In this document: positions 11,645-43,326 of the stretch, one piece after another
How the letters are laid out: each line of letters begins with the position of its first letter
Numbering within the stretch: the stretch's first letter is position 1
Origin: Thiomonas delicata
Lineage (GTDB): Bacteria; Pseudomonadota; Gammaproteobacteria; Burkholderiales; Burkholderiaceae_C
DNA: 64,000 nt
Direction: 5' to 3'
NCBI RefSeq assembly: GCF_900088825.1
Contig: NZ_LT592171.1
Span: 854,425 to 918,424 of the forward strand
Notes under the pieces: generated by a model
Told to the model about the DNA's origin: nothing
Seen by the model: only the letters and a program-made list of their open reading frames with translations
The model's database searches: none
Made by a program: the position numbers and the translations under genes

Positions 11645-11721
11645 GGAGTGGTAGTTCAGTTGGTTAGAATACCGGCCTGTCACGCCGGGGGTCGCGGGTT
11701 CGAGTCCCGTCCACTCCGCCA
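11645..11721 (+). tRNA. tRNA-Asp (GTC)
   Basis: A 77-nt gene including an encoded CCA. The acceptor stem GGAGTGG pairs with CCACTCC, the anticodon stem CCGGC/GCCGG encloses CTGTCAC with anticodon GTC at 11679-11681, and the T-arm GCGGG-TTCGAGT-CCCGT is intact. Its 3' part from 11674 is the left attachment repeat of the genomic island, so the integrated element reconstitutes a functional tRNA. Confidence 0.97.
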
Positions 11722-12909: not shown

Positions 12910-13334
12910 TGCCAACTGACGCCTTGCTGAGTCGCTTGGACGGCGTGCGACGCACCGGATCTGGGCGGTGGTTGGCCCGTTGCCCAGCGCATGATGATCG
13001 TCGCCCGAGCTTGGCCATTCGAGACTTGGGTGATGGTCGGATCTTGCTGCACGACTTCGGCGGTTGCGAGACGGAAGGCGTGCTTGCCGCTATAGGCATG
13101 ACCTGGGCCGACCTCATGCCGGCAAAGGCCGTCGACCATTACCGCCGGGCAGAGCGTGCTCCATTCCCCGCACTTGATGTTCTTCGCGCCCTTGAATTCG
13201 AGACCATGATCGTCGTGGGCGTTGCGGCCGCCATTGGTGTGGGCACACTACCCAACGAAGCTGACCGTCAGCGTGTGCATGTGGCTCATTCCCGAATTCT
13301 GGCCGGATTGCGGCTGGCAGGAGGAGGCGTATGA
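12906..13334 (+). CDS. Primase-type zinc-binding domain protein
   Basis: A 142-aa protein whose N-terminal half looks like the CHC2-type zinc finger of plasmid and phage primases: GSGRWLARCPAHDDRRPSLAI then LHDFGGCETEGVLAAIGM, with Cys/His/Cys ligands. The C-terminal half (about residues 70-142) has a hydrophobic segment and no recognised fold. No TOPRIM domain is present in this gene. It overlaps its neighbours on both sides by ATGA, indicating coupling to the HTH protein and the DUF3987 protein. Confidence 0.7.
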   Translation: MMPTDALLSRLDGVRRTGSGRWLARCPAHDDRRPSLAIRDLGDGRILLHDFGGCETEGVLAAIGMTWADLMPAKAVDHYRRAERAPFPALDVLRALEFETMIVVGVAAAIGVGTLPNEADRQRVHVAHSRILAGLRLAGGGV

Positions 13335-14815
13335 GTGCCATTGCCGAAGCTGACCATAGGCAAGAGGCCATCCGGCGTGGAGCGGCCATATTGGACGATA
13401 TTGCCGCCGCGTCTGGCCACTACCCAACAGCACGAGCCTTCCCGCGTCTAACGCTGGCCCAAGCCCTGGATCGCGCGCAAGCCATGCTCATGCAACCCAT
13501 GGGGCGCGGAGGTGGCGACTATCCTGTCGAAGCCCTGGGGCCGCTCGCCGAAGCTGCGCGCGACCTGGCTACTGGAGCACAAGTCGCGCCCGCTATGGCC
13601 GGGCAATCCTTGCTTGCGGCCGCTGCCCTGCTCGTGCAGTCCACCGCCAACGTGCGCAGCCTGGATGGGTCCTCAAGGCCCTTGAGCCTGTATTGCCTGA
13701 CCATCGCCCACTCGGGAGATGGGAAAGACAGTGCTGACCGCCCAGCCCTGCGCATGATCCACGATCACCAGCGCCAGGCAGGTGCTAAGTGGGAGGTTGA
13801 TCGCGCCGCATTCGAGGAGGCCAAGGCGAATCGCAAAAAGGGTGAACATCCTCCTGACCCTCCAGGCCCAGCGCCTTATCGTCTGGCCTCTGACCTGACG
13901 ATCGAAGGATTGCGACGCAGTTTCGCGGAGGGTGTGGCCGCACAAGGGATCTACTCGACCGAAGCAGGTGTGGTGCTGGCCGGGCACGCCATGAGTGCGG
14001 AGAACCGAACCAAAACAGCCGCCAACCTATGCGGGATGTGGGACCGTGGGCACATCAGCGTGCTGCGTGCAGGTGGTGGCCGCACAGAGCGCTACGGCGT
14101 GCGTTTGAGCGCTCACATGCTGATCCAGCCCGCTGCTCTGGGCGACGTGCTGAGCGACGAAACCTTGGCCGGTATCGGCTTCTGGCCGCGTTTCTTGCTG
14201 GCCTGGCCTGCGCCATTGGAGCCGCGCAAGTACCAGCCATGGCAACCCGACAACAGCGAAGCGATCCGCAGATACTGGGGCGATTGCGAGCGACTGCTGG
14301 CACGTCCCATGCCACTTGATTGTGACGGGTTGCCGGTGATCGAGTTGGACGACCATGCCGCCCAGCACATGGCCGCGTTCTTCGAAGCGATGGAGTCAGA
14401 GGGCCGTAAAGGCGGGTTGCGCGACGTGCGCCCCTTCGCCCTGCGAGCTACCGAACTGGCCTGCCGGATTGCGGGCGTTCTGGCGGCATTCAACGGCACG
14501 GGCACCATCGACATGGGCCTGGCGAAATGCGGTGCTGAGCTGGCGGCACATTCCCTCGAAAACTGGCAGGCCGCGCTTGCCGGCAGCGCTGACCCCGTGC
14601 CTGGCTGGGCCTTGGCCCTTTATCGGTGGCTGGCCACTCGGCGTGATCCAGTGGCGATCCGGGATCTGACCAAACTTGCCCCGGCTAGCGTGAGGCCGCG
14701 CAATCGGCGGGATGCGGCCATCGACCTGCTGAAAGTATATGGGCTGGTGGCGATCGACGAAGGCCACGTTGGTGCCTTGGGGGTGGAGTTGGGGGTAGAC
14801 CATGCGCCCGAGTGA
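13331..14815 (+). CDS. DUF3987 (YfjI-like) protein
   Basis: A 494-aa protein of the DUF3987 type common on islands and prophages next to primase-like zinc proteins. Visible stretches include LTIAHSGDGKDSADRPALR near residue 127, which replaces a Walker A in this family, GVVLAGHAMSAEN near 217 and GFWPRFLLAWP near 280. The family is often described as primase/helicase-associated, and a role in element replication is inferred. It overlaps the next gene by 14 bp. Confidence 0.7.
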   Translation: MSAIAEADHRQEAIRRGAAILDDIAAASGHYPTARAFPRLTLAQALDRAQAMLMQPMGRGGGDYPVEALGPLAEAARDLATGAQVAPAMAGQSLLAAAALLVQSTANVRSLDGSSRPLSLYCLTIAHSGDGKDSADRPALRMIHDHQRQAGAKWEVDRAAFEEAKANRKKGEHPPDPPGPAPYRLASDLTIEGLRRSFAEGVAAQGIYSTEAGVVLAGHAMSAENRTKTAANLCGMWDRGHISVLRAGGGRTERYGVRLSAHMLIQPAALGDVLSDETLAGIGFWPRFLLAWPAPLEPRKYQPWQPDNSEAIRRYWGDCERLLARPMPLDCDGLPVIELDDHAAQHMAAFFEAMESEGRKGGLRDVRPFALRATELACRIAGVLAAFNGTGTIDMGLAKCGAELAAHSLENWQAALAGSADPVPGWALALYRWLATRRDPVAIRDLTKLAPASVRPRNRRDAAIDLLKVYGLVAIDEGHVGALGVELGVDHAPE

Positions 14816-15537: not shown

Positions 15538-15801
15538 ATGCAATTCCTCAAGACGATGCAAAGTGTAGGCAACACCGTTGTCCAGTTTCTGGCCGCCGTT
15601 TCGTACAGACTCGATCAGATCGAGTTTCGTATCACCCGCCGCGAACAGATCGGCAAGCTTGCCCAGCAGGCTGGTGTACTCGAACTGAGTGACACGCGCA
15701 TCCTCGCAGCGCTGCGCACACTGAAAACCGAGTACGCAGACCCAGACCCGACGGATCGACACACGGCCAGCCAGCGGTCCCGAGGGGAGGATGTGCAATG
15801 A
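15538..15801 (+). CDS. Small hypothetical protein upstream of mobC
   Basis: An 87-aa protein, MQFLKTMQSVGNTVVQFLAA onwards, with an amphipathic N-terminal half and a polar tail. A GAAAAAGGA stretch 6-10 bp upstream supports the ATG at 15538. Its stop overlaps the next start by ATGA, so it is coupled to the relaxase candidate and could be a mobilisation accessory factor. No family is recognised. Confidence 0.55.
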   Translation: MQFLKTMQSVGNTVVQFLAAVSYRLDQIEFRITRREQIGKLAQQAGVLELSDTRILAALRTLKTEYADPDPTDRHTASQRSRGEDVQ

Positions 15802-16508
15802 ATTTGCCGCACCTGTCCCATCCAGAAATATGGGCTCGCGCCCATGCCAAGCGTCGGCTGGTCCTCGATTGGCTGGCAGGCGGTGAGTGCTATTCAACAG
15901 TCCAACATCTGGCCATGTTGCTTGAGTTGTCGCGGCCGACCGTACATGACTTGCTCACGGCAATGGAACGCGACGGCTTGCTTCAGCATGAGTCGGTCGA
16001 AGCCAGTAAACGAAAAATCTGGGGTGTAACCCCGCATGGAATCGCACTCGCTTCGGTCGAAAAACCCGGCCCACATTTCGAGCGCGGTCGCGTTTCGGCT
16101 GGATTCATTCAGCATCACCTGGACACGCAGAAGGCACGGCTTCAAGCAGAGGCCAATGGCTGGATTGGATGGATGCCTGGCAAGCTTCTCTACGACATCG
16201 GCCTCAAGAAAATTCCCGACGCCTTGGCCACCACACCTGCCGGCCAGACCATCGCGATCGAGGTCGAGCGCACGATCAAGACTCCGAAGCGATACGCCGA
16301 GATCATCCCTATCACGCTGATGGACGTAAAGGCCGGTCGCTATGCCGCTGTCCATTACATCAGCCCGCAGGGCCATGCTTCCGCGATCTCGCGCGCGCTG
16401 CGCCGCGTCGAGAAAGTCAAAGTCGGAGGCGAGACCGTCAAGCTGACCGATGCGCATTTCACGCGTTTCAGCTTTCACGACTTGGCCGAATGGCCGCCAT
16501 CGCTATGA
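15798..16508 (+). CDS. Candidate MOBC-type relaxase (replication-relaxation family)
   Basis: A 236-aa protein. Residues 15-85 form a winged-helix domain (CYSTVQHLAMLLELSRPTVHDLL, ERDGLLQHE). Residues 125-210 hold PDALATTPAGQTIAIEVER followed by a Lys, reading as a PD-(D/E)xK-like D...ExE...K arrangement. MOBC relaxases, exemplified by CloDF13 MobC (also about 240 aa), combine a winged helix with a restriction-endonuclease-like core and belong to the replication-relaxation family. A VirD4/TraG-like coupling protein follows after a hairpin-rich gap, as expected for a mob module. Relaxase activity is inferred; a wHTH regulator is the alternative. Confidence 0.6.
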   Translation: MNLPHLSHPEIWARAHAKRRLVLDWLAGGECYSTVQHLAMLLELSRPTVHDLLTAMERDGLLQHESVEASKRKIWGVTPHGIALASVEKPGPHFERGRVSAGFIQHHLDTQKARLQAEANGWIGWMPGKLLYDIGLKKIPDALATTPAGQTIAIEVERTIKTPKRYAEIIPITLMDVKAGRYAAVHYISPQGHASAISRALRRVEKVKVGGETVKLTDAHFTRFSFHDLAEWPPSL

Positions 16509-16540
16509 ACAATGTGATGACCATCAGATGTGCGAGGTCA

Positions 16541-16620
16541 CCGACATCGGTCACCGACGGGTATCCCGACAAGGGTGTCGGCATGCCATGTCGGCACGCC
16601 CATCGACATGCCCTGCCGAC
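16541..16620. repeat. Cluster of six CCGAC/GTCGG pentamers
   Basis: CCGAC starts at 16541, 16554, 16566 and 16616; GTCGG at 16577 and 16590. The first pair sits in a 10-bp direct repeat GGTCACCGAC (16536 and 16549, 13 bp apart), and the inverted pair in GTCGGCA repeats also 13 bp apart. CCGAC at 16566 and GTCGG at 16577 form a small hairpin. The cluster begins 28 bp after the relaxase candidate's stop, as relaxase-binding repeats at an oriT might. Confidence 0.5.
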
Positions 16621-16835
16621 GGGCAGCTCATGTGAGGACAAGGCCAACGGGGGTCGTTCGATTCCGCTGTGCGGCCCCGGTGCTGGACGCACCGGCATCA
16701 AGCCTGCGGCTTTCGTCTTTCTGAACGCTAGGGCATTCACCCCCTTGCAAGCGGCCCGGCGGCGCGCGCTTCGCGCCCGCCTACCCCCAAACCAGGCACC
16801 GAACGTCATGCCGCGTCGCGGCCTGCCGATCGGTG

Positions 16836-17096
16836 GTTCTGCTACCGCAGAACTCTCGCACCGTGCGGAGCACGCTGCTCGACCCTGCGCACCTCGCATC
16901 GCTTTGCTCGCTGGTGCTGGCTTCTCGCATCGCTCGAAGTGTTTTGCGGGTAGGCGGGCGCGTTCCGCTTCCGCCGGGGGGCTGTGCCCCCGCTGCGCCA
17001 CCGCCTGCTTGGGCAGGCTTGCGCGGGCGACGCTTTGCAAGTGTGCCCTTGCAAAGCTGCCCGCACATGGCTTGCGGCCCCCCGCACTGCAGTGCG
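16836..17096. repeat. Series of five perfect hairpins
   Basis: Stems: GTTCTGC/GCAGAAC (16836-16853, 4-nt loop); GGGGGC/GCCCCC (16977-16991, 3-nt loop); GCCTGC/GCAGGC (17003-17018, 4-nt loop); GCTTTGCAAG/CTTGCAAAGC (17032-17057, 6-nt loop); and the 14-bp palindrome CGCACTGCAGTGCG (17083-17096). Five perfect stems with short loops in about 260 bp is far more than expected by chance, even at high GC. Confidence 0.6.
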
Positions 17097-17276
17097 CGTC
17101 GCTTGACCTCGGCGCGGCTTCGCCTTGCTCGGCGCTCGCTCCTGCCTGCAGTGGGCCACGCCCTGGACGGGCTTGCCCCGCAGTGATCGCCCGTGGGTCG
17201 TCCTGCGGCCAACTAACTACCGACGCGCGGTGCTGGATGCCGGGCTGTCCAATCGCTTTCGATGCTGGAGGCCTTG

Positions 17277-19016
17277 ATGTCTGAATTCTTTGCAAACCTG
17301 TTGGCCGACATCCTCGGCTTTATCTGGGCTCATGGCGCCAATCTTGGCGTGCTTGGCGCCTTCATCCTGTTCTGGCTCAGCCTGAAACGAGATCGCTCGA
17401 CACGATTCACGCGGTTGCTGGGCCTCCTGGCCTTGCTGGCCATCGCTCCCATGGTTTCGGCGGTTGGCCTCATCCTTGTCCAGACGCAATGGTTGCAGCA
17501 GCCATGGACACCGACCTTGGGCGAATTCGGGGCCTATCTCGGGCACCTCTGTTTGAGTGTCCTTGTGGCCGTTTTTTGGTTTCGTATCGTCGTGCCCGCC
17601 TTCAACAGCTTGACCGCAAGGTTGACGCGACGGACTGAGTTGGAGCGTAATCGCAAGACTGATGTTCGCGAGATCAGCAAATTTTTGCCCGCGAAGGTCG
17701 CAGCCTACGATCCACGGAAGTTCATCCGCAAGACGCCAACATGCCAAATTCTGGTTGGCCTTGATGACCACAGAAAGCCTGTGACGATCGCGTATGACGA
17801 CTTCAGCATCCGACACATCCTGCTCGCAGGTGGAACCCGAAGTGGCAAAGGTGTCGCCGCGCAAATCTTGATTTCGCAGGCCCTGCAACGCGGGGAATTC
17901 GTGGTCGTCTTGGATCCGAAGGGTGACGACTGGATGCCCCACGGATTCAAGGTGGCATGCGAACAGGCCAACGTTCCTTATCACTACCTCGACCTGCGCC
18001 AGTCTCAGCCCGCTCAGTGCAATCCGTTTTCAGGCTGCAATGTTGAAACGCTGGAGGGGATGTTGATTGGTGGTTTCGGCTTGAGCGAGAAGGGTGAGGC
18101 AGCCGATTTTTACCGCTTGGCGGATCGGAAGGCCGCCAGGCAATGCGCCGCTTGGTTGGCCGGTCATCGAGGTGCGACGGCCCGCGACGTGCTTGCGGCG
18201 CTGGGGACAGATTGGATTGAGGCTGCCCCAGCATTTCACAGCTACTTGTCGGAGATGGCGGCGCTGGATTGCGTGAACGCAGCATCCGGCGGATTGGACG
18301 TCGCATCTGGCGAGCGCGAAGGCGGAATGCTTTACGTGGTCGGTGACATGATCCATTCGGGCATCATCCGTATGCAACGCATGGTGCTGCTCCGTCTGCT
18401 GTATCTGGCCAAGAACCGCCGCTATCTGGGCAAAACACCACGCAAGATTCTTGTCTTTGCAGACGAATTCAAAGTCCACATCAGTCGGCCTTTCATGACC
18501 AGTCTGGGCGCCTCGGCAGGTTGGGGTTTGCATTGCATCCTGGCTTTCCAGAGTATGCAGGACTTGGCCGATTGCCCACAAGACTTGTCTCCCGAGGTGG
18601 TCAAGGGTGCCGTGTCCGAAAACTGCACGATCAAGCTTTCCTACCGTGCTGACGATCCAGATACGGCGGAATGGCTAAGCCGTTCGACAGGTACGGTCCT
18701 CGTGGACGACGAGTCGCGCACCATCGAAAAGAACGTTGGCCTCGCCGAGACGGTGCATCCGGTTCGGCGTATCAGCCAGGCCGAACGCCCGCTCGTAGAC
18801 ACGAATATGTTCATGAATCTGCCGAAGGGCTGTGGGGTACTGCGCATCCCCGGTTCGCTGGCCCGATTTGTCTACACCTCGCCGGTACCGACCGAGCGCG
18901 GCGATGCCGCGATCACACCCATCGTTGCACAGGCTAGTGTGTATCCGACGGCTGGTGCTGCTGCGATCGACACGGCGCAGCCCGTCTTACAGACTGCAGT
19001 TGACCCTCTGCTATAG
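17277..19016 (+). CDS. VirD4/TraD-type conjugative coupling protein
   Basis: A 579-aa protein of the type IV coupling ATPase family, which links a relaxase-DNA complex to a conjugation channel. Two to three membrane helices lie in residues 1-110. The soluble part holds Walker A GGTRSGKGVAAQ near residue 186 and Walker B ILVFADEF near 390, followed by a C-terminal TraG/TraD-like core. The ATG at 17277 has GGAG 6 bp upstream. It follows the relaxase candidate and putative oriT, matching the MobC-MobB layout of MOBC plasmids. No channel genes occur, so a helper element would be needed. Confidence 0.82.
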   Translation: MSEFFANLLADILGFIWAHGANLGVLGAFILFWLSLKRDRSTRFTRLLGLLALLAIAPMVSAVGLILVQTQWLQQPWTPTLGEFGAYLGHLCLSVLVAVFWFRIVVPAFNSLTARLTRRTELERNRKTDVREISKFLPAKVAAYDPRKFIRKTPTCQILVGLDDHRKPVTIAYDDFSIRHILLAGGTRSGKGVAAQILISQALQRGEFVVVLDPKGDDWMPHGFKVACEQANVPYHYLDLRQSQPAQCNPFSGCNVETLEGMLIGGFGLSEKGEAADFYRLADRKAARQCAAWLAGHRGATARDVLAALGTDWIEAAPAFHSYLSEMAALDCVNAASGGLDVASGEREGGMLYVVGDMIHSGIIRMQRMVLLRLLYLAKNRRYLGKTPRKILVFADEFKVHISRPFMTSLGASAGWGLHCILAFQSMQDLADCPQDLSPEVVKGAVSENCTIKLSYRADDPDTAEWLSRSTGTVLVDDESRTIEKNVGLAETVHPVRRISQAERPLVDTNMFMNLPKGCGVLRIPGSLARFVYTSPVPTERGDAAITPIVAQASVYPTAGAAAIDTAQPVLQTAVDPLL

Positions 19017-22657: not shown

Positions 22658-23713
22658 ATGAGACCTAATATTAAAAAGGCGGCGTGTGTTGACCTGTTCT
22701 GCGGCGCGGGCGGCCTGACGCATGGCTTCGTTTTGGAGGGGGTGCCCGTTGTTGCAGGTATTGATCTGGACCCTGCCTGCCGTTTTCCCTATGAAGCCAA
22801 CAACCAGGCCAGATTCGTCGAACGTGATATCAGCAAGGTCGCCACCGATGAGTTGAAAGCGCTGTTCGGGGACGCTGACTTCACGATTCTCGCGGGTTGC
22901 GCCCCGTGCCAGCCCTTCTCGACCTACGCACAGCGCTACGAGCTGGATGGGAAGGATGGCAAGTGGGGCTTGCTGTATGAGTTCGCGCGTCTCGCTAAAG
23001 GCGCCAAACCCGATGTCATCACGATGGAAAACGTGCCCACCGTTGCGAAGCATGAGGTGTTTCATGATTTCGTCGACACCCTGAAGCGACTGGGCTACAA
23101 GGTTTGGTTCGACGTCGTCGATAGCTCCCGCTATGGCGTGCCGCAGATGCGGCGGCGCATGGTGCTACTGGCATCGAAGCATGGCGACATCACGATGATC
23201 GAACCGACCCACGAGAAACCGAAAACGGTTCGTCAATCCATTGGCCGCTTGCGCCCACTGAGTGCTGGCGAGGCGGCCCCCAGGGACAAACTGCACGTCA
23301 CCTCGACGCTGTCCGAAAAGAATCTCCAGCGGATCAAAATCTCCAAGCCAGGCGGCACCTGGCGCGACTGGCCGAATTATCTGGTCGCAGACTGTCACCG
23401 CGCGGAGAGCGGGCGTACTTACCCGAGTGTTTACGGCCGTATGGAGTGGGACAAGCCAGCCCCGACCATGACCACTCAGTGCTACGGCTTCGGGAATGGC
23501 CGTTTCGGGCACCCGGAGCAAGATCGCGCCATCTCATTGAGGGAGGCTGCAATCCTCCAGAGCTTTCCGCGCCACTACGCCTTCGTGCCGGAAGACGGCG
23601 AGGTGAGCTTCAAGGCTCTTGGGCGGCTCATCGGCAATGCGGTTCCCGTCGACCTCGGTCGCGCCATCGCGCGGAGCATCAAAGCGCATATCGCATCAAT
23701 CGCGGCTCAATGA
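22658..23713 (+). CDS. DNA (cytosine-5) methyltransferase
   Basis: A 351-aa m5C DNA methyltransferase with all main motifs in order: I (DLFCGAGGLTHGF, near residue 9), IV with the catalytic Cys (GCAPCQPFSTY, near 75), VI (ENVP, near 123), VIII (QMRRRMVLLAS, near 165), IX (SLREAAILQSFP, near 292) and X (GNAVPVDLGRAIARSI, near 325). The recognition region between VIII and IX is about 110 residues. It starts the defence operon, 21 bp before vsr. It could serve as a DISARM modification enzyme (drmMII-like) or as part of an inherited m5C/Vsr unit. The target sequence is unknown. Confidence 0.93.
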   Translation: MRPNIKKAACVDLFCGAGGLTHGFVLEGVPVVAGIDLDPACRFPYEANNQARFVERDISKVATDELKALFGDADFTILAGCAPCQPFSTYAQRYELDGKDGKWGLLYEFARLAKGAKPDVITMENVPTVAKHEVFHDFVDTLKRLGYKVWFDVVDSSRYGVPQMRRRMVLLASKHGDITMIEPTHEKPKTVRQSIGRLRPLSAGEAAPRDKLHVTSTLSEKNLQRIKISKPGGTWRDWPNYLVADCHRAESGRTYPSVYGRMEWDKPAPTMTTQCYGFGNGRFGHPEQDRAISLREAAILQSFPRHYAFVPEDGEVSFKALGRLIGNAVPVDLGRAIARSIKAHIASIAAQ

Positions 23714-23734
23714 CGACCTGACGAAGGTCTGCCG

Positions 23735-24190
23735 ATGCCGCGCATTCAGCCCTCGTCCCCTGAGACCAGTCGCCGCATGGCGAAAGTTCGGCAAAAGGGA
23801 ACTGATGCCGAGATCGCGCTGCGAAGAGAGCTTTACTGTAGAGGCCTGCGTTACCGGGTCGACTACGAGGTCATAAAGAAACCTCGCCGCGTGGCAGACG
23901 TGGCATTTCCGGGGTTGAAGATCGCCATCTTCGTCGACGGGTGCTTCTGGCACGGTTGCCCCGAGCATGCCACCTGGCCGAAGCAGAACGCCGAGTTCTG
24001 GCGGAAGAAGATCAAGGCGAATCGCCTCAGGGACGCCGACACGAATTCGAGGCTTCTCACAGTCGGTTGGACGGTACTGCGATTCTGGGAACACGAGTCC
24101 CCGATCGAAGCCACGGAAACCGTCGCGCGGATGGTCGCCATGGTCAGGTCGAAGCGCTGCGCTTCGCCTGGCGCACAAGAGAAGAACTGA
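23735..24190 (+). CDS. vsr: Very short patch repair endonuclease
   Basis: A 151-aa Vsr-type nuclease that nicks at T:G mismatches left by deamination of 5-methylcytosine. Visible are the N-terminal MAKVRQKGTDAEIALRREL, the catalytic Asp region VADVAFPGLKIAIFVDGCFW and the zinc-ligand segment HGCPEHATWPK, then a C-terminal FWRKKI-NRLRD. It follows the m5C methyltransferase and lies 8 bp before drmD. Vsr usually accompanies m5C methyltransferases, so it likely protects the host from mutation at the methylated sites. A role as a defence effector nuclease is possible but unsupported. Confidence 0.92.
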   Translation: MPRIQPSSPETSRRMAKVRQKGTDAEIALRRELYCRGLRYRVDYEVIKKPRRVADVAFPGLKIAIFVDGCFWHGCPEHATWPKQNAEFWRKKIKANRLRDADTNSRLLTVGWTVLRFWEHESPIEATETVARMVAMVRSKRCASPGAQEKN

Positions 24191-24198
24191 ACAGGAAG

Positions 24199-27100
24199 AT
24201 GGCAGACCGCATGGAAATCTCGAACGATCAGAAGCACCAGACCTACCGTGCCTGTCCGGAGCCAGGTCAGCTGGTCGAGGTTCGCCGGCGCCAGTGGGTC
24301 GTGGCGGATGTCACTTCCTCAAAACTGGAATCGGCTTCGGCGTCGCAGAACTGCGTGACGCTTTCATCCATCGACGAGGACGGTCTCGGCGAGGAACTGG
24401 AGGTCATCTGGGAGATCGAACCCGGCGCACAAGTCATCGAGCGCGCGGGTCTGCCTTCCATCACCGGGCAGGACGACTCGGACACGCTCGAAGCATTCCT
24501 CGATGCCGTCCGTTGGGGCGCCGCCACTAATGCCGAAAGAGGTTTCTTGCAGGCGCCTTTCCGTAGTGGCGTCAGCATCGAGGACTTCCAGCTAGACCCG
24601 CTGGTTCGCGCCATCGACATGGCCCGCGTTAATCTGCTCATCGCTGACGACGTCGGCTTGGGCAAGACCATTGAGGCTGGGCTGGTCATCCAGGAGATGC
24701 TGCTGCGGCACCGCGCCCGTACCGTCTTGATCATCTGCCCAGCCTCTCTCCAGGAGAAATGGCGTGTCGAGATGCTAGAGAAGTTCGGCCTTGAGTTCCG
24801 CGTGGCCGACACCGCGTATATCAAACAACTGCGGCGCGAACGTGGCATCCATGCCAACCCGTGGACCTCCCACCCACGGCTCATCGCCTCAATGGACTGG
24901 GTCAAGAGTGGCGAGGGGCTTCGCGCCATGCGGGATGTGCTGCCACCTCACGCAGGCCATCCACGCAAGTTCGATCTCCTGGTCGTCGACGAAGCGCACA
25001 ACATCGCCCCTGCAGCCGGGGCGCATTACGCGCTGGAGAGTCAGCGGACCCGTTTCATTCGCGCGATCAGCCCGCACTTCCAGCACCGCCTGTTCCTGAC
25101 CGCGACGCCTCACAACGGCTACACGGAATCCTTTACCTCGCTGCTGGAATTGCTGGACGACCAGCGCTTCGCCCGCAACATCCTCCCAGACGAGAAGCAG
25201 TTGAGTCAGGTGATGATCCGTCGCCTGAAGAGTGATCTCGTCGATGCCGACGGCAAGCCGCTGTATGCCCAGCGCAAGCTGCAGGCGCTGGCGGTCCCTT
25301 ACACGGCTGAGGAACGGGAGATCCACCAGAAGCTGAACGATTACTGCGCCAGTCGCGAAAAAGACGCAGAGAGGGCTGGTAGCACGTTCGGCACCTCGTT
25401 CGTCAACCAGCTACTCAAGAAGCGCCTGTTTTCGTCGCCCGCCGCGTTCGCTTCCACGCTTGAGAAGCACGTCGCCTCGCTGTCGAACGGCGCCAGCCCC
25501 AAGGCACAAGACGCCTTGGCCGATCGCATCCTGCGGAAAGCCATCCTGAAAGTGGATGAGGATTACGCCGACGATCAGGAGGTCGAGAACGCCCAGTCGG
25601 AGGCCGTCGAGGAGGCATCGCGTCGATCCCAGCCGCTGACACAGGAACAGCAACGGATGCTGGCCGACTTGCGGCAATGGGCGCAGCGCGCCAAGAACCA
25701 GACCGACTCCAAGGCCAGGGCCATCATCGATTGGCTCTCGGCCAACCTCAAGCCGGGCGGCCAGTGGAACGATCGCCGGGTGATCCTGTTCACCGAGTAC
25801 CGCACCACCCACCAGTGGATGCACGAGATACTGGCCAGCCACGGCTTCGGCGGTGAACGTCTAGGCCTGCTCCATGGTGGCCTCACGCAGGATGAGCGCG
25901 AACCTATCAAAGCGGCCTTCCAGTCCTCGCCCAAGGATTCCCCCGTCCGCGTCCTGCTCGCGACCGATGCAGCCTCGGAAGGTATCGACCTGCAGAACCA
26001 CTGCAATTGTCTCATCCATTTGGAGATTCCCTACAACCCGAACGTGATGGAGCAGCGTAATGGTCGTATCGACCGTCACGGTCAACGCGAGAAGGAAGTG
26101 CTGATCTGGCACCCGGTCGACGGCGGTGGGCAAGGCCATGCTACTGTGGGTGGCCATGGCGAGGACATCCTGCGTGCACTGCGCAAGCTGGAGTCGATGC
26201 GCGCCGACATGGGCAGCGTCAACCCGGTCATCGCGCCGCAAATGTCCGGCCTCATCGAAGGTTCGCTGAAGGATCTGGACACTCGCCTCGCGGAAGCCAA
26301 GATCGCCAAGGCTCGGCGCTTCGTCCGCGCCGAACGTGAGCTGAAAGAGCGCGTCGCCAAGCTCAACGAACGGCTTCTCTCCACTCAGCAGGATTTCCGT
26401 CTCACCCCCGATCACATCCAGATGGCGGTGAAGACCGGCCTCGCGCTGGCTGGCCGCCCACCACTGGAACCCTGCGCCCTCCCGGATGCTCCCCAAGGCA
26501 GCGTATTCAGGATGCCACCCCTCTCGGGGTCGTGGGCACGCTGTCTGGAGGGTTTGCGTCACCCGCATACCCAGCAGATACGCCCCATCACCTTCGATCA
26601 CGCGGTGGCCAAGGGACGAGACGATGTCGTGCTGGTTCATCTGAATCATCGACTGGTGCAGATGTGCCTGCGTCTGTTGCGCGCCGAGGTCTGGGCGCAG
26701 GACGACGTGAAGAAACTGCATCGAGTCACCGTGCGCACCTTGCCGGATGGCAGCATCGAAGGCCCGGCCGTGGTCGTCATCTCACGATTGGTCATCACCG
26801 GCGGCAACCATCATCGACTCCATGAGGAGCTGACCGTCTCGGGCGGCTACCTGCGCGATCAGTCGTTCCGGCGCGAAGAGGGTGTCACGCGTATCCAGCA
26901 GTGGCTGGACGAGGCCCAGCCCACCACCGCGAGCGATGCGCTGTTCGATGCCCTCCGAGTACGCTTCGACCGAGCCCAGCCGGCCATCCTGCAAACGGTG
27001 GATGCCCGCTCCAAGGACAGACTCAAATTCTTGGCGAACACGCTGCAGAGCCGCAAGCAACAGGAGATCGACGACATCGGAACGGTACTAGACGAACTGG

Positions 27101-27351
27101 AAAAGGCGATCCAGAACGAGCTGAAGAAAGATCAACAACCCGAACAGCTCACGCTCTTCACCGAGGACGAGCGCACCCAACTCAGACGCGATACCGCTGC
27201 ATTGGAGGCCCGCCTCGCACGTATACCCGCAGAAAGAATCCAAGAGATTCAAGCGATTGAGGCGCGCTACGCCAAGCTCGACGACCGCACCTTCCCGGTC
27301 GCGGTGATCTTTCTGGTTCCCGAATCCGCTGCAAAAGAGGGGGCGGCATGA
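24199..27351 (+). CDS. drmD: DISARM SNF2-like helicase DrmD
   Basis: A 1050-aa superfamily 2 helicase of the SNF2/RapA-like type. The N-terminal ATPase half has LLIADDVGLGKTIEAGLVIQ (Walker A near residue 153), LLVVDEAHNI (DEAH at 264-267) and FLTATPHNG (motif III). The C-terminal half has LLATDAASEGIDLQ and MEQRNGRIDRHGQ (motifs V and VI), followed by a long helical region. The ATG at 24199 lies 8 bp after vsr; a longer in-frame extension covers vsr and is rejected. Its stop overlaps the drmMI start (ATGA). DrmD with DrmMI defines class 1 DISARM. Confidence 0.9.
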   Translation: MADRMEISNDQKHQTYRACPEPGQLVEVRRRQWVVADVTSSKLESASASQNCVTLSSIDEDGLGEELEVIWEIEPGAQVIERAGLPSITGQDDSDTLEAFLDAVRWGAATNAERGFLQAPFRSGVSIEDFQLDPLVRAIDMARVNLLIADDVGLGKTIEAGLVIQEMLLRHRARTVLIICPASLQEKWRVEMLEKFGLEFRVADTAYIKQLRRERGIHANPWTSHPRLIASMDWVKSGEGLRAMRDVLPPHAGHPRKFDLLVVDEAHNIAPAAGAHYALESQRTRFIRAISPHFQHRLFLTATPHNGYTESFTSLLELLDDQRFARNILPDEKQLSQVMIRRLKSDLVDADGKPLYAQRKLQALAVPYTAEEREIHQKLNDYCASREKDAERAGSTFGTSFVNQLLKKRLFSSPAAFASTLEKHVASLSNGASPKAQDALADRILRKAILKVDEDYADDQEVENAQSEAVEEASRRSQPLTQEQQRMLADLRQWAQRAKNQTDSKARAIIDWLSANLKPGGQWNDRRVILFTEYRTTHQWMHEILASHGFGGERLGLLHGGLTQDEREPIKAAFQSSPKDSPVRVLLATDAASEGIDLQNHCNCLIHLEIPYNPNVMEQRNGRIDRHGQREKEVLIWHPVDGGGQGHATVGGHGEDILRALRKLESMRADMGSVNPVIAPQMSGLIEGSLKDLDTRLAEAKIAKARRFVRAERELKERVAKLNERLLSTQQDFRLTPDHIQMAVKTGLALAGRPPLEPCALPDAPQGSVFRMPPLSGSWARCLEGLRHPHTQQIRPITFDHAVAKGRDDVVLVHLNHRLVQMCLRLLRAEVWAQDDVKKLHRVTVRTLPDGSIEGPAVVVISRLVITGGNHHRLHEELTVSGGYLRDQSFRREEGVTRIQQWLDEAQPTTASDALFDALRVRFDRAQPAILQTVDARSKDRLKFLANTLQSRKQQEIDDIGTVLDELEKAIQNELKKDQQPEQLTLFTEDERTQLRRDTAALEARLARIPAERIQEIQAIEARYAKLDDRTFPVAVIFLVPESAAKEGAA

Positions 27352-30300
27352 GCGCCAACACCTTGCATCACGACTGGCTGGCGCTCATCGAGATCTCCGG
27401 CCCATTCCTCGCCGTCCCCGTGCTGACAGAGGCCTTCCCGCAAGGACTGGAAGAACTCAATGGGATCAGGCGCAAACGGCTGCGTCAGGCCTACGAGGAA
27501 TGGCGCGAGGCGCAAGAAACGGAAGATCCGAAGTTCGGCGAGTTGCACGCGGTCTGGATCAACGAGGTCCTGTCGCGTAGCCTCGAACTCGACGAAGACG
27601 GTAAGGGCGACGTCCTGAAGCGCGCCGACTGGTGCACCGCCAATCTGAGTGTCAGCCTGCCCGAACACGGTGTAACGCTGGTTCCTGACCTCGCGGTGAT
27701 TGACGAGCAACGGGGCAATAGACCCCTGATGCTCATCCACACCTACGGGCAGGACGTCGACCTCGACGCCACCCTGAAGCTGGACGGCTGGGCTGCTACA
27801 CCTGCCGAACGCATGGTCCAACTCTGCCGCGCTACTGGCTGCCGCCTCGGGCTGGTGACAAACGGCGAACGCTGGATGCTGGTCGATGCACCAGTGGGTG
27901 CCGTGACCACCTTCGCCAGCTGGTACGCCCGCATCTGGGTTCAGGAACCCATCACCTTGCAGGCTTTCGTTCACCTGCTCGGCATTCGACGCTTCTTCGT
28001 CGATGAAGCAGAGCAACTGCCTGCGCTGTTCGACCGATCTTTGAAATATCAGGACGAGGTCACCGACGCACTCGGTGAGCAGGTTCGCCGCGCCGTCGAA
28101 GTGCTGATCCAGGCGCTCGACAAGGCCGACCAAGACCGCGACCGCGAACTGCTGCGTGACGTGAAGGAGCCAGAGCTCTACGAAGCAGCCCTGACGGTGA
28201 TGATGCGACTCGTCTTCCTGCTCTCCGCCGAAGAACGAGGCCTGCTGCTCTTGGGCGACGAACGCTACGAGGCCAACTATGCGCTCTCGACCCTGCGCAT
28301 GCAGCTGCGAAAGGAATCCGAGGAGATCCTTGAGCGCCGCTGGGATGCCTGGTCGCGCTTGCTGGCTATCTTCCGTGCCGTGTTCGGCGGTATTGAGCAC
28401 GAGAACCTGCGCCTGCCCGCGCTGGGCGGTTCACTGTTCGACCCGGATCGTTTCCCCTTCCTTGAGGGTCGAGCCAAGGGTTCCAACTGGCGCACCGACA
28501 CGGCCAAGCCGCTGCCGATCGACAACCGCACTGTGTTGCTGTTGCTTGAGGCCATCCAGCAGTTCCAGGGGCGGATACTTTCTTACCGCGCACTGGACGT
28601 CGAGCAGATCGGCTACGTCTACGAAGGCCTGCTGGAGCGGACCGTCAAGCGCACCAGCGAGGTCACGCTGGAACTGGACGGCACCAAGAGTGCCAAGAGT
28701 CCCTGGGTCAAGTTGGCCGAGCTGGAGTCCGCCAGACTGGAGGGTGCAGACCGACTTGCCGAACTGCTCCAGGAGCGCTCCGGCAGTTCCGTCAGCCGAG
28801 TGCGCAACGATCTGGCCAAGCCGGTCGACGACACGCTTGCCGATCGTCTGCTCGCCGCCTGCCACGGGGACGCCGGCCTGCGTGATCGCATCAAGCCGTT
28901 TGCCCACCTGGTGCGCACCGATCCATGGGGCTATCCGCTGATCTATCCCGCCGGAGCCTTCATCGTCACCACCGGTTCCGACCGGCGCGAAACCGGCACC
29001 CACTACACCCCGAAATCGCTGACCGAGGCCATCGTCACGGAGACGCTGACGCCGATCGCCTACATGGGGCCAGCCGATGGCACTCCTCGCGAACAATGGG
29101 TGTTGAAGTCTCCCGCCGAACTGCTCGACCTCAAGATCTGCGACCCGGCTATGGGCTCGGGCGCTTTCCTCGTGCAAGCCTGCCGCTGGTTGGCCGATCG
29201 CCTGGTTGAGGCTTGGTCACTGGCCGAAGCCAGCGGCAAGTCGGTCAGCGTCGATGGCGAAGTGCTGGACTCATCGGACACGAAGGAGCCACTGCCCCGC
29301 GACATTGAGGCCCGCACCGTAATCGCCCGCCGGCTGATCGCAGAGCGTTGCTTGTACGGCGTGGATCTGAACCCGCTGGCGGTCGAGCTCGCCAAGCTCT
29401 CGATCTGGTTGGTGACGCTGGCCAAGGGGCGTCCTTTCGGTTTCCTCGACCACAACCTGCGCTGCGGCGATAGTCTCCTCGGTATCCATCGTCTGGATCA
29501 ACTCACGGAACTTTCGATGACGCCGTCCGGAAAGGGCCAGCAACGCCTGTTCGGGCAGAACATTGAGCGGGCGGTTCACGAGGCGATCGACTTGAGGCAA
29601 CAGCTGCGCCGGATGCCGATCCGCGACATTCGTGACGTCGAGGCCATGGCGCGGCTGGATGCCGATGCACGTCAGAAGCTCGAAGTGCCGGAGCGTATCG
29701 CCGATGCGTTCATAGGGGAAGTGTTCGTTACGGGTGGTGCTGGCGCGGCGCTTGAGAATTCGCTGGCCTCGCTCTCAATCCAAGCCGGACAAGCCATTGA
29801 GGGTAACCAAGACTCTCTGGCTGCGATGCGCCGAGGAGCTGTCGCTGCTTTTTTGACAGATCTACCGGAGGGCAAGTCATCTCGTCGGCCATTCCACTGG
29901 CCCCTCGAATTTCCTGAAGTGTTCGCACGTGACGCCCAAGGTTTCGATGGCTTCGTCGGAAATCCACCGTTCAGCGGCGGACGCTGGATTGGACGTCGTT
30001 TTGGTCTGGCGTACCAAGAGTATTTGAAGCTGATACGCAATGGCGTCGTGGGTTCCCCCGACTTCTGCGTCTATTTCTATTTGCGGGCCTTCACATTGCT
30101 TGGGTCAAAGGGCTGCCTCGGCCTGTTGGCAACCAAGTCAATCACGGAAACTGGCTCCCGAGTGGTCTGCTTGGATCAGATCATCGGAATGGGCGGAACC
30201 GTTTATCGGGGATGCTCGCGCATGGCTTGGCCGGGCAACGCGGCCGTAGTTGTTTCGATTGCATGGGTTGCCCGCAAGGGCTGGCAAGGTCAGAGAATCC

Positions 30301-31619
30301 TGGACGACCGAGCGGTGTCCGCCATTAATGGTGCACTGGAAGAGGATTTCCAGATAAAGCGCCCAGTGAAGCTAAAGGCACTTAAGGGGCGGTTCTCGCA
30401 GGGACAAAATCTTCACGGAGTTGGGTTCGAGTTGACCGCCGACGAGCGTGCTCAAATGCTCGCAATTGATCCCAAGTCTATTGAAGTCATGCGCCCGCTA
30501 TTTAATGGGCAAGACCTAAATGCCATGCCCGAACTGGCCCCCTACCGTTGGACGCTTTATTTCGACGACTGGCCAGAGGAAAAGGCACGCCAGTATCCTT
30601 TGGCGTTCAATCGCGTTGAGAGGCTTGTCAAGCCAATGCGTGATGCATTGACAGGGCAGATACATCAGAAGTGCTTCTGGAAATTTTGGGATTTGAGGCC
30701 AGGACTGATTCGAGAGGCGAGCCAGAACGAATTCTTTCTTGCTTCAGCGATGGTGACGAAATACGTCTGTTTTCGGCGGGTGCCAACACGAAACATCTAC
30801 AACCATAAAACAATTGTCTATTTTTTCTACGATTGGTGGGAATTTGCGGTTTTGCAATCCAGTCTCCACTTGGAGTGGGCATATTGGAATTGCGGAACAC
30901 TTGGTACTTCGACACTAAGCTACTCGACTTCAACTGCCTTGGAAACATGGCCAATGCCGATCCTTGATGGTGACGAAGAAATCGAGAATCTCGGTGAGCG
31001 TTATCACTCGCACCGTGAGTCGTTTATGGCAGAGGAAGCAATCGGCCTCACCCAGCTCTACAACCGCTTCCATGATCGGTCTGACACAGATCCCCGAATG
31101 GGAAGGATGCGAGTGTTGCATCGTGAAATCGACCTCGCAGTTGCTCGCGCCTACGGCTGGGACGACCTTGACTTGGAGCATGGCTTCCACGAAGTGCCGT
31201 ACCTGCCAGAGAACGACCGCGTTCGCTTCACCCTCAGCGATCGTGCGCGCCTTGAAGTGCTGCGCCGCTTGTCGGAACTCAACCATCAGCGATACGAGGA
31301 AGAAGTCGCCCAAGGGCTACATGGAAATGCCGGGGCACGAACCCCGCGCCGTGCTGCCCGCGCCACGCTTACACAACCCTCCTTTGATTTCGACGCGGAA
31401 GCCGCGCCCACTGCCAATAGCGGGGCACCAGCCACAGCAATCCTTGATTTCCTGAGCGCGCATCAAGGCTGGCATGCCAAGGCGGACATCGTTACCGCTA
31501 CCGGTATTGCGGACAGTCAATGGAATGTCTCGATCGCCGCGCTGATCTCTGACGGTAACGTCGAGCGCCAAGGGGAGCGACGAGGGGCACGATATCGCTT
31601 TGTCAAGGTGAGGCCGTGA
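27348..31619 (+). CDS. drmMI: DISARM adenine methyltransferase DrmMI
   Basis: A 1423-aa gamma-class N6-adenine methyltransferase of the large Eco57I/type IIG-like build. The SAM-binding motif CDPAMGSGAF is near residue 598 and the catalytic GNPPF near 871. The region after it (about 880-1250) should be the target recognition part, and a winged-helix-like module closes the protein (ILDFLSAHQGWHAKADIV, residues about 1360-1420). The N-terminal 550 residues are helical, without a clear PD-(D/E)xK nuclease motif, so it is read as modification-only. DNA for residues about 1000-1200 is visibly AT-richer than its surroundings. It overlaps drmD and the next gene. Confidence 0.88.
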   Translation: MSANTLHHDWLALIEISGPFLAVPVLTEAFPQGLEELNGIRRKRLRQAYEEWREAQETEDPKFGELHAVWINEVLSRSLELDEDGKGDVLKRADWCTANLSVSLPEHGVTLVPDLAVIDEQRGNRPLMLIHTYGQDVDLDATLKLDGWAATPAERMVQLCRATGCRLGLVTNGERWMLVDAPVGAVTTFASWYARIWVQEPITLQAFVHLLGIRRFFVDEAEQLPALFDRSLKYQDEVTDALGEQVRRAVEVLIQALDKADQDRDRELLRDVKEPELYEAALTVMMRLVFLLSAEERGLLLLGDERYEANYALSTLRMQLRKESEEILERRWDAWSRLLAIFRAVFGGIEHENLRLPALGGSLFDPDRFPFLEGRAKGSNWRTDTAKPLPIDNRTVLLLLEAIQQFQGRILSYRALDVEQIGYVYEGLLERTVKRTSEVTLELDGTKSAKSPWVKLAELESARLEGADRLAELLQERSGSSVSRVRNDLAKPVDDTLADRLLAACHGDAGLRDRIKPFAHLVRTDPWGYPLIYPAGAFIVTTGSDRRETGTHYTPKSLTEAIVTETLTPIAYMGPADGTPREQWVLKSPAELLDLKICDPAMGSGAFLVQACRWLADRLVEAWSLAEASGKSVSVDGEVLDSSDTKEPLPRDIEARTVIARRLIAERCLYGVDLNPLAVELAKLSIWLVTLAKGRPFGFLDHNLRCGDSLLGIHRLDQLTELSMTPSGKGQQRLFGQNIERAVHEAIDLRQQLRRMPIRDIRDVEAMARLDADARQKLEVPERIADAFIGEVFVTGGAGAALENSLASLSIQAGQAIEGNQDSLAAMRRGAVAAFLTDLPEGKSSRRPFHWPLEFPEVFARDAQGFDGFVGNPPFSGGRWIGRRFGLAYQEYLKLIRNGVVGSPDFCVYFYLRAFTLLGSKGCLGLLATKSITETGSRVVCLDQIIGMGGTVYRGCSRMAWPGNAAVVVSIAWVARKGWQGQRILDDRAVSAINGALEEDFQIKRPVKLKALKGRFSQGQNLHGVGFELTADERAQMLAIDPKSIEVMRPLFNGQDLNAMPELAPYRWTLYFDDWPEEKARQYPLAFNRVERLVKPMRDALTGQIHQKCFWKFWDLRPGLIREASQNEFFLASAMVTKYVCFRRVPTRNIYNHKTIVYFFYDWWEFAVLQSSLHLEWAYWNCGTLGTSTLSYSTSTALETWPMPILDGDEEIENLGERYHSHRESFMAEEAIGLTQLYNRFHDRSDTDPRMGRMRVLHREIDLAVARAYGWDDLDLEHGFHEVPYLPENDRVRFTLSDRARLEVLRRLSELNHQRYEEEVAQGLHGNAGARTPRRAARATLTQPSFDFDAEAAPTANSGAPATAILDFLSAHQGWHAKADIVTATGIADSQWNVSIAALISDGNVERQGERRGARYRFVKVRP

Positions 31620-33493
31620 TGGAGAACGAACGCTACCCAGTAGATCTGACTGTCTCAGTCGATGACTTTGCTAACTGCGGCTGGAAGGAAGTGCTGGAGC
31701 AGATCTCCCGCGAAGGGTACTCGGCCATGTGGCAGGCGTTCTCCGCGGCTGCACGGACAGCCATGGACGAGGGTCGCAAAACGCATGGCAAGGTTCTCTG
31801 GTTATTGGCTGACGCCTGCTCAATGATGCTAGTGCCGTCGAGTCATAACGAACCCTTCAAACCCATCGCGGTGTTTCATGATCGCCGGTCTGTGATCCCG
31901 GACGACTTGACCGAATCGGATTTCGAATTCTTTAGTTTGGTCCTCGATTCGACTGATGACCTGTGGCTTAAGGCCCGCCTTGCAGATCTGTGCTGGTTGA
32001 AGCAAAAACCCAGGGTAGTAGATCATGCGCTGGCGGCCATCGATGCCTATCTCACCATTCCGCTGGACATTGAGACATGGGTTCGTGGGGGCAGGGAGTG
32101 TTGGGAGCGTGCTATCAGCCTGGCACGGATGCTGAAAGCCGGGGCTGGTGATCGTTTGCAGAAAATGGAGGCAGCGATTCTTGTCGCCTTCAATGCAGCG
32201 ACACTCCGAGACGGCTTCCTGGGGCTATGGCTCGCTGATCTGCTGAAAACGAATGGTATGGCGCGGGAACGACGGATCGACGTCGCCAAACGTTTGGAAT
32301 CCCTGGCCCGGGAGTTCGATGGCGAGGGTGATCTGCACCGTGCGCGTGAGTATTTCTCAGCGGCTTCCGACTGGTACAGGATCTCAGCGGATGAGTCGAA
32401 GGCAGCCGAAATGACCGTGTCCGTTGCCGAAGGGTGGGTAAAAGAGGCCATCGCTCGGACCTCATCAAGTGCCCCGAGTCACATGGTGGCTGCGAGCTTC
32501 TTCGAGAATGCGATTCAGACCTATCGGACGATTCCAGGAGCGGAACGCGCCGCACACCGAGTAGACGAGCGGATCGCCGAGCTACGGTCTCACCTCAACG
32601 ACTCCGGTGAGAAGGCACTGGGCGAGATGGGCGTTATCAGCACGCCGGGTGTCGATATCTCCGATCTCGTGGAGAACGCGCGCAGGGCCGTCAGCGGCAA
32701 GTCGCCTATCGATGCATTGAAGGCGTTTGCCAACCTGCACCGAGGTGCGAAGGTGGATGAGCTGCGCAAGAGTGCCCTTGATCGGATGCGGGAGTTCCCC
32801 TTGCAATCCCTCTTCGCTGCGACGGTCATGAGCCGGGACGGAAGAGTCATCGCCAAACGCCCTGCCATGAGCCTAGGTGGCGAATTGACGGATTCCGACG
32901 AGCTCGCCATCCGAGCGGAAATGGTTCGAGACTACGGAATCTTCGTCAGCATCATCGTGCAGGGGGACGTTTGGCCCGCACTCGAGACGATGCTCCTGGA
33001 GCATCGCTTGCGCGAAGCGGATTTCGTAGGCCTGGCGCGCCAGTCTCCCATCGTGCCGAAGGGGCGAGAAGGGCTTTTTGGCAAGGCTCTGTTCCAAGGC
33101 TATGAGCGAGATTTCGTATCCGCGCTGCACCTGCTCATCCCACAGATCGAGCACATGGTGCGCTTTCACCTCAAACAGGCTGGTGCGAAGACTACGAATC
33201 TGGACAAGGATGGTGTCGAGAACGAGAACGGGCTGAGCACCTTGATGGATCTGCCTGAAGCGGAAACCGTTTTCGGCAAAGACCTGGCCTTCGAGCTGAA
33301 AACGCTTTTCTGCGATGCGTTCGGCCCGAATCTTCGTAACGAGCTTGCTCACGGCTTGCTCGACGAGGATGCCTGCCATTCACCATTTGCCATCTATGCA
33401 TGGTGGTTTGGGTTGCGGCTTGTATTCAATGCCTGGTGGAACGCAGCACGCAAAGATGACACCACGGTCGAAGAGGAAGAAACCAATGGCTGA
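31619..33493 (+). CDS. DUF4209-like protein with HEPN-type RNxxxHG motif, within DISARM operon
   Basis: A 624-aa predicted all-helical protein, not part of described core DISARM. Residues 1-560 contain TPR-like helical pairs (DLHRAREYFSAASDWYRISA). The C-terminus has IPQIEHMVRFHLKQAG near residue 510 and NLRNELAHGLLDED with RNELAHG at bases 33335-33355. RNxxxHG is the hallmark of DUF4209 and fits the R-x4-6-H signature of HEPN domains, many of which are RNases. The ATG at 31619 (or GTG at 31616) overlaps the drmMI stop, and its own stop lies 8 bp inside drmA, so it is translationally embedded. A catalytic RNase effector is inferred; a structural HEPN is the alternative. Confidence 0.75.
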   Translation: MENERYPVDLTVSVDDFANCGWKEVLEQISREGYSAMWQAFSAAARTAMDEGRKTHGKVLWLLADACSMMLVPSSHNEPFKPIAVFHDRRSVIPDDLTESDFEFFSLVLDSTDDLWLKARLADLCWLKQKPRVVDHALAAIDAYLTIPLDIETWVRGGRECWERAISLARMLKAGAGDRLQKMEAAILVAFNAATLRDGFLGLWLADLLKTNGMARERRIDVAKRLESLAREFDGEGDLHRAREYFSAASDWYRISADESKAAEMTVSVAEGWVKEAIARTSSSAPSHMVAASFFENAIQTYRTIPGAERAAHRVDERIAELRSHLNDSGEKALGEMGVISTPGVDISDLVENARRAVSGKSPIDALKAFANLHRGAKVDELRKSALDRMREFPLQSLFAATVMSRDGRVIAKRPAMSLGGELTDSDELAIRAEMVRDYGIFVSIIVQGDVWPALETMLLEHRLREADFVGLARQSPIVPKGREGLFGKALFQGYERDFVSALHLLIPQIEHMVRFHLKQAGAKTTNLDKDGVENENGLSTLMDLPEAETVFGKDLAFELKTLFCDAFGPNLRNELAHGLLDEDACHSPFAIYAWWFGLRLVFNAWWNAARKDDTTVEEEETNG

Positions 33494-37520: not shown

Positions 37521-37522
37521 AC

Positions 37523-39382: not shown

Positions 39383-39383
39383 C

Positions 39384-40145
39384 GTGGAGAAGCTCTTGGA
39401 CGCCGTGGCAGCCGTGGTCTGTCTGGTCTCTCCTGAGAAGGTTCAGGCGATCGCCAACCGGATTCGTCGGACCGATTTCACTATAGCAGCCGACTCGCTT
39501 TCGGGGGTGGTCGGCACGCCTGCTGCCGCTGGGGTAGTGCATCAGCTCGTCGATGCCTGGCGAACGACCGCTGTTAGCGCCGAAGAGCTTGCATCAATGC
39601 TGCTTGCCGCCGGCCATGTCTTCACCAAGGCAGCCAACCAGCAATCCACAGAACTCGTGTGGACAGGGCCGACGACGCCCTTCGTTTCGGCCCGTCGAAC
39701 GGAACAGGCGTTGCTTCAGGTCATCAACGCCGCCAAGCAAACCCTGTTCATTACCAGTTTCGTTGCATACGACGTCTCGACCATCGTGAAGGCGCTGAAT
39801 GCGGCAAGCGAACGCGGTGTGGTGATTTCCATGCTGCTTGAGTTATCCCAGGATCACGGCGGCAGCATCTCATTTGATGCGATAGGCAAGATGACCGCGC
39901 TGGTTCCCGCTGCGAGGCTCTATGCCTGGCGGGAAAAGGCCGATCCGTTCTCAGGCGGGCGTGTCCACGCCAAAGTCGCTGCCGCCGATGGCAGGGTGTG
40001 CTTCATCACCAGCGCAAATCTGACCGGGCATGCGATGGAGAAGAACATGGAGGCGGGGGTACTAATTTCTGGCGGGAGTATCCCTCAGCTAATGATGCAG
40101 CATCTTGATTCACTTGTCGGGATGAAATTCATTGCTCGGGTTTGA
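39384..40145 (+). CDS. drmC: DISARM phospholipase D-like protein DrmC
   Basis: A 253-aa PLD-superfamily protein. A single HxKx4D motif, VHAKVAAAD, starts at residue 193 and is followed by SANLTGHAMEKNMEAGVLI. One motif per chain implies a dimeric active site, as in PLD-type nucleases. The GTG at 39384, one base after the drmB stop, is the only start giving a full-length N-terminus. In tested DISARM systems DrmC is reported as dispensable, so its exact role is open. The convergent integrase gene ends 35 bp downstream. Confidence 0.9.
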   Translation: MEKLLDAVAAVVCLVSPEKVQAIANRIRRTDFTIAADSLSGVVGTPAAAGVVHQLVDAWRTTAVSAEELASMLLAAGHVFTKAANQQSTELVWTGPTTPFVSARRTEQALLQVINAAKQTLFITSFVAYDVSTIVKALNAASERGVVISMLLELSQDHGGSISFDAIGKMTALVPAARLYAWREKADPFSGGRVHAKVAAADGRVCFITSANLTGHAMEKNMEAGVLISGGSIPQLMMQHLDSLVGMKFIARV

Positions 40146-41212: not shown

Positions 41213-41233
41213 GCAAAGCCCCTGAACGGGCAA

Positions 41234-41251
41234 TTCCCACTGAATTCCCAC
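41234..41251. repeat. Integrase arm-type repeat at the right end
   Basis: TTCCCACTGAATTCCCAC differs from the left-end copy at 11803-11820 by one base. It lies 22 bp upstream of the integrase ATG and 62 bp inside attR, so binding there could also autoregulate int. Function is inferred. Confidence 0.6.
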
Positions 41252-41313
41252 AAATGATAGCCCATATTTTGAAGAATCTAGGAATTAAGCTGATCCCAAT
41301 GGATCTTTATTTA

Positions 41314-41362
41314 GGCCTGTCACGCCGGGGGTCGCGGGTTCGAGTCCCGTCCACTCCGCCAA
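41314..41362 (+). repeat. attR: 49-bp direct repeat of the tRNA-Asp 3' end
   Basis: A perfect copy of 11674-11722, lacking the 5' 29 nt of the tRNA, so it is a tRNA fragment and not a second gene. The next base differs (G here, A at the left), fixing the repeat end. Confidence 0.93.
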
Positions 41363-41373
41363 GCATTCAAGTC

Positions 41374-41402
41374 AACCGGGCCTGCGCGGCCCGGTTTTTT
41401 TT
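41374..41402 (+). terminator. Rho-independent terminator, ancestral to tRNA-Asp
   Basis: AACCGGGCC pairs perfectly with GGCCCGGTT around TGCGC, followed by eight T residues. It lies 12 bp past attR and most likely terminated tRNA-Asp before the island inserted. Confidence 0.9.
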
Positions 41403-41439
41403 CGCCTTGACTTGGCGTCCTCAGCGTAGCGTGCCCGCT

Positions 41440-43230: not shown

Positions 43231-43326
43231 GCCGCATCCTAGCCCGTGCCTGTCGCCGGCGACGGATGCCAGCCATCAATTCCCCAGCCCAGCCGGCTCA
43301 CGCGGCGGCTGCGTATAGTGCTGTGC

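Follow-up and report, generated by a model that had tools for sequence, protein, structure and literature searches.

In CloDF13-type MOBC mobilization regions the layout oriT-mobB-mobC is found, where the putative oriT is the region upstream of mobB and the nic sites lie in an inverted repeat (PMC2262945). The MOBC relaxases are PD-(D/E)XK-related (PMC12857230, PMC11389934), and CloDF13 MobC has been reported probably to work without a covalent relaxase-DNA intermediate (PMC9299015). In SGI1, the sgm-sRNA is required for mobilization (PMC9299015); like the field described here, it spans several hundred non-coding bases beside oriT and an atypical relaxase, but the SGI1 module is a different one (MpsA/MpsB). 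The element reported here has a conserved secondary structure as the Rfam families do, but none of the 4227 families matched the window field with E <=1, and the related loci gave tRNA matches and others below threshold only. Strand-specific hairpins near oriT are also known from ssDNA initiation sites and Frpo-type leading-region promoters; our element is larger than these and has a conserved three-way junction. No description of its fold was found in the openly readable literature searched.

The 64-kb stretch of Thiomonas delicata DNA analysed in our study (the window) shares with the CloDF13-type regions, including pMET1, pCRY and HPI-ECOR31, a predicted relaxase of the MobC family, a coupling protein gene and a long non-coding region with inverted repeats beside mobB/mobC, and the same loop-conserved hairpins are present in CloDF13 itself. 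The gene order is different, being mobC, field and coupling protein in the window and field, mobB and mobC in the CloDF13 type (Table 1). The window mobC matched NF041423 over its full length (E 5e-56, 189.7 bits against a curated NCBIfam cut-off of 200), and its motif IPDAL...IAIEVERTIK aligns with the MobC proteins of CloDF13-type plasmids, which predicts a PD-(D/E)XK-type active site. A VirD4-type coupling protein gene lies beside it, as in a MOBC mobilization module. The exact repeat of the tRNA-Asp end together with the integrase gene delimits an island of about 29.7 kb, which is a mobilizable element at tRNA-Asp with a MOBC mobilization pair; no T4SS genes were found among the island ORFs scanned. 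A DUF3987 protein is encoded upstream of mobC (13331-14815), and the island also carries a complete-looking DISARM set (DrmMII, DrmD, DrmMI, DrmA, DrmB, DrmC) with a PDC-S39 candidate gene (22658-40145). A 662-aa ORF without any Pfam family overlaps attR (41254-43242) and is followed by a 1929-aa UvrA-like ORF (43246-49035).

Table 1. Features of the island and of the hairpin field in the window (strand "." where neither is assigned)
Feature	Position	Strand	Basis or remark
attL, 3' end of tRNA-Asp	11696-11721	+	exact 26-bp repeat, 0 expected by chance
mobC, MOBC-type (CloDF13 MobC-like) relaxase with MarR-like HTH and PD...EVE PD-(D/E)XK-type motif	15798-16508	+	NF041423 MobC_subf
Iteron and inverted-repeat block next to mobC, centre CCGACA-AGGG-TGTCGG at 16566-16581	16530-16630	.	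blocks of this kind adjoin the element in L002, L026, L037, L038, L040, L042
Hairpin CCGGTGC-TGGAC-GCACCGG, 7 bp, pentaloop class	16677-16695	+	hairpin search
Hairpin AAGCC-TGC-GGCTT, triloop class	16700-16712	+	hairpin search
Hairpin GAACGC-TAGG-GCATTC, then conserved ATTCACCCCC	16723-16744	+	one A.C mismatch (wobble on the other strand)
15-bp long-range stem, 5' arm CGCGCCCGCCTACCC	16772-16786	+	sequence and folding
Perfect stem, 7 bp, loop TACC	16836-16853		hairpin search
15-bp long-range stem, 3' arm GGGTAGGCGGGCGCG	16948-16962	+	sequence and folding
Module 3: G-run, three-way junction with two hairpins (17003-17018; 17032-17057), GGGGGC-ACA-GCCCCC hairpin	16977-17084	-	models R1, R2
Perfect stem, 6 bp, loop TGT	16977-16991		hairpin search
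Perfect stem, 6 bp, loop TTGG (CCAA on minus strand)	17003-17018		hairpin search
Perfect stem, 10 bp, loop TGTGCC	17032-17057		hairpin search
Stretch of about 70 nt, 79% identical to the second element copy of the same genome (L002/L018), one hairpin loop changed	17074-17140	+	
14-bp palindrome CGCACTGCAGTGCG	17083-17096	.	hairpin search
Hairpin GCCC-TGGAC-GGGC	17160-17172	+	sequence
VirD4/TraD-type coupling protein, MobB role	17262-19016	+	PF02534, PF10412, PF12696; TIGR03743
Island tyrosine integrase	40181-41251	-	PF00589, E 3e-26
attR, exact copy of tRNA-Asp 3' end	41336-41361	+	26-bp repeat

An earlier note, made from the sequence alone, had described a dense, gene-free hairpin field upstream of the coupling protein, and this was borne out. 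Between 16509 and 17261, 16 perfect hairpins (stem at least 5, loop 3-6) are found against a mean of 4.9 in shuffles, and 8 have a stem of at least 6 (shuffle mean 1.3); none of the 300 dinucleotide shuffles reached either number. The five perfect stems and the palindrome described in that note are all present. The field itself is real, but its start had been placed at 16700 whereas it begins at about 16530 with the iteron and inverted-repeat block, a candidate relaxase-binding or nic region. The folding of the gap strand also exceeded the shuffled controls that had been proposed, both as DNA (z -3.7, 0/20 shuffles equally good) and as RNA (z -2.9, 1/100 shuffles). The long minus-strand ORF spanning the gap had zero matches in the Pfam family search, and tRNA and promoter scans of the field gave no identity and no promoter-like match. 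A gene-coding reading and a REP-like array were both rejected, as no family match was obtained, the stems are variable and they covary.

The stems had been called unrelated to each other; their sequences do differ, but the loops recur, as C-TGGAC-G and C-T(A/G/T)GG-G, on one strand only. The loop classes were picked after inspection of the fields, and with this proviso nine related gaps hold 29 shared loops against 0.2 expected and 0 on the other strand, comprising 13 pentaloops TGGAC/TGAAC/TGGAT (0.03 expected) and 16 tetraloops T[AGT]GG (0.17 expected), while reverse-complement versions were absent from all nine fields. Elsewhere in the window a single five-base-pair hairpin has such a loop. 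The order TGGAC, TAGG and C-run is also kept in L002, L003 and L017, and where both are found, the TGRAC hairpins come before GGCYCCCCC in almost every copy. A CsrA/RsmA sponge acting through the GGA of the TGGAC loop was also weighed but not retained, since GGA is missing from the tetraloop classes and the opposite strand seems to be the active one. As the classes were chosen post hoc, the plasmids and the genome scans described below are the strongest independent checks.

Covariation across homologous copies, the other check that had been proposed, gave strong compensatory change, above shuffles in three alignments. In a plain MAFFT alignment of nine sequences (A2), 28 cells carried changes in both partners of a pair, where shuffles gave 10.7; in two alignments fitted to the structure, which favours the structure, there were 113 against 38.6 (A3, 27 distinct matches) and 99 against 32.7 (A5, 22 matches with the window excluded; slid controls 13-24), and in all of these the double-changed cells are not independent events. 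For seven conjugative-type plasmids RNAalifold predicted 111 pairs, 32 of them with double changes. On the strand opposite the loops, module 3 has, in this order, GGGGG(A/G)GCCG, a three-way junction that holds two hairpins with CCCA/CCAA/CCTA as loops, and a G-run/C-run hairpin. Models R1 (the three-way junction) and R2 (leave-window-out) were both built without the window sequence, and the window copy scored 28.3 bits (E 0.0018), the sole match in 64 kb, and 37.4 bits (E 5e-4), respectively, which is a moderate fit to the family (28-37 bits).

Comparable fields were found in the same genome and in relatives. In a second element of this genome (L002/L018), a hairpin field of about 800 bp comes after a MobC-like gene, and comparable fields occur in the Thiomonas locus L003 and in other relatives. 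Over 558 bp, L003 and L017 share 75% identity, the long-range stem being swapped for a different paired one; equivalents of this stem with other sequences were also seen in L007 and in plasmids. DNA similarity searches with the fields against plasmids gave no matches, so conservation of the element does not extend to its sequence. The window's own genome holds a third copy of the structured module (L068, C5:699289-699398), next to a MobC-like ORF that is divergent, and in some relatives helicase/primase-type genes also adjoin the element (L045/L057, L050/L060).

Blind scans with R1 matched 9 of 301 genomes of the family and 4 of 339 genomes of the class, the own genome being counted in both. 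Profile searches of the flanks revealed MobC-like proteins, often highly divergent, beside most matches; none was found at G242 (L058) and at G159 C109 (contig end), and at G237 a weak candidate lies about 5 kb off. Conversely, all five genomes with a strong MobC match in a 401-genome family sample have a field (L013 and L017 judged by eye).

In MOBC plasmids of Enterobacterales, Vibrio and Acinetobacter, the loop hairpins were present in 14 of fifteen full gaps upstream of mobB, each time on one strand only; the gap of L039 had none under the strict rule, and L034 is a 151-bp fragment only. In CloDF13 (mobB 9406->7534 and mobC 7486->6757 by tblastn) they can be read immediately upstream of mobB. 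ColE-type and Acinetobacter plasmids carry the loops on the mobB strand, conjugative MPF_T-type and Vibrio plasmids on the opposite one, hence the cassette can flip. Across the element from mobB, the gaps of conjugative-type and Vibrio plasmids (L026, L029, L036, L037, L039-L043) also hold 2-3 iteron-like copies of TTAACAAT...ATTGAA (or TTAGCAAT...) hairpins. A conserved, strand-specific folded element is associated with MOBC modules, and the window field is one copy of this folding non-coding stretch, whose shape is kept while its letters vary, beside MOBC genes in plasmids and islands of many Gram-negative bacteria.

The earlier reading, that a single strand folds here as an ssDNA initiation site, an oriT or a structured RNA, is thus supported by folding, covariation and the setting, since a position beside a MOBC relaxase and coupling protein pair fits an oriT or a structured RNA of the transfer region. 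We consider it likely that, in this mobilizable island of the MOBC (CloDF13) type, the field forms the structured, non-coding portion of the origin-of-transfer region and acts when single-stranded. The iteron block by mobC would be the relaxase-binding and nicking region. The adjoining stretch of about 550 nt folds when single-stranded into loop-conserved hairpins, the long-range stem and the three-way-junction module, as the covariation across copies shows. The element most likely works in this single-stranded state while the island is mobilized, and the active molecule would be either ssDNA or an RNA copied from the strand opposite mobC; possible binding partners for the conserved loops and the G/C-rich run are MobC, the coupling protein or some further factor.

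The wobble bias suggests which strand is active, namely, in the window, the one opposite mobC, but it does not tell RNA from DNA. Read in the mobC-sense orientation, one-mismatch stems have A.C and G.T at 24:6, so the wobbles (G.U) sit on the other strand. The strand opposite mobC folds better in 25/25 copies (19 sequence groups), and in 17/20 it gains more than its complement when G.U pairs are permitted. When the folding was re-run without G.U a part of the asymmetry persisted, so loop energies contribute and not wobble alone. In the window by itself the G.U counts do not favour this strand (17 vs 21), and the strand argument therefore holds at the family level.

Between RNA and ssDNA as the active form the balance is about even. 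The element may be a structured non-coding RNA with a length of about 500-700 nt that is read from the strand opposite mobC and needed for MOBC mobilization or its control, in a role comparable to the sgm-sRNA, which SGI1 requires and which is encoded between mpsA and oriT (PMC9299015). We hold this tentatively; the mismatch ratio, the better folding and the larger G.U gain of that strand speak for it, and long-range covarying stems with a three-way junction are typical of RNA. On the other hand, the promoter scan found no promoter-like site in the window field, the folding asymmetry is partly left without G.U, the window counts do not favour that strand, G.T is a mild mismatch in DNA also, and the covarying cells are not independent.

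It is just as possible that folded ssDNA of the transferred strand is the working form, its hairpins serving recognition, complementary-strand priming, ssDNA promoters or rejoining. The polarity relative to the iteron block is constant wherever that block was detected, which suggests a role in cis, and relative to mobB the whole cassette changes its orientation together. In DNA, GNA triloops with a closing C-G pair are very stable, and this was counted for the ssDNA reading; the wobble bias fits RNA somewhat better, without being decisive. A chance or mutational by-product, in which GC-rich intergenic DNA gathers palindromes or a REP-like repeat array, is very improbable, as the high GC of the field (0.68-0.72 against about 0.58 in the surroundings) is outweighed by the hairpin excess over dinucleotide shuffles, the strand-specific loops, the compensatory changes that already contradict it and the element copies in AT-rich hosts (L019, L027).

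Read as a structured part of the putative oriT region, the element would have its role in transfer. The shape kept despite the change of letters suggests a functional component of gene transfer that has so far not been characterised, and the element may represent a new family of RNA or ssDNA structures. It can be used as a marker for locating oriT regions in MOBC islands that have no sequence similarity. MOBC relaxases resemble restriction endonucleases, and CloDF13 MobC is reported probably to do without a covalent intermediate (PMC9299015); to the question of how such transfer starts and ends, a conserved folded element beside the MOBC genes in most copies examined adds a specific and testable part. 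As a tentative proposal, a large structured RNA (or ssDNA structure) next to oriT could be a conserved core component of MOBC systems, common to CloDF13 plasmids and chromosomal islands across Gammaproteobacteria (in the GTDB sense), which would help these atypical nuclease-type relaxases to start or end transfer.
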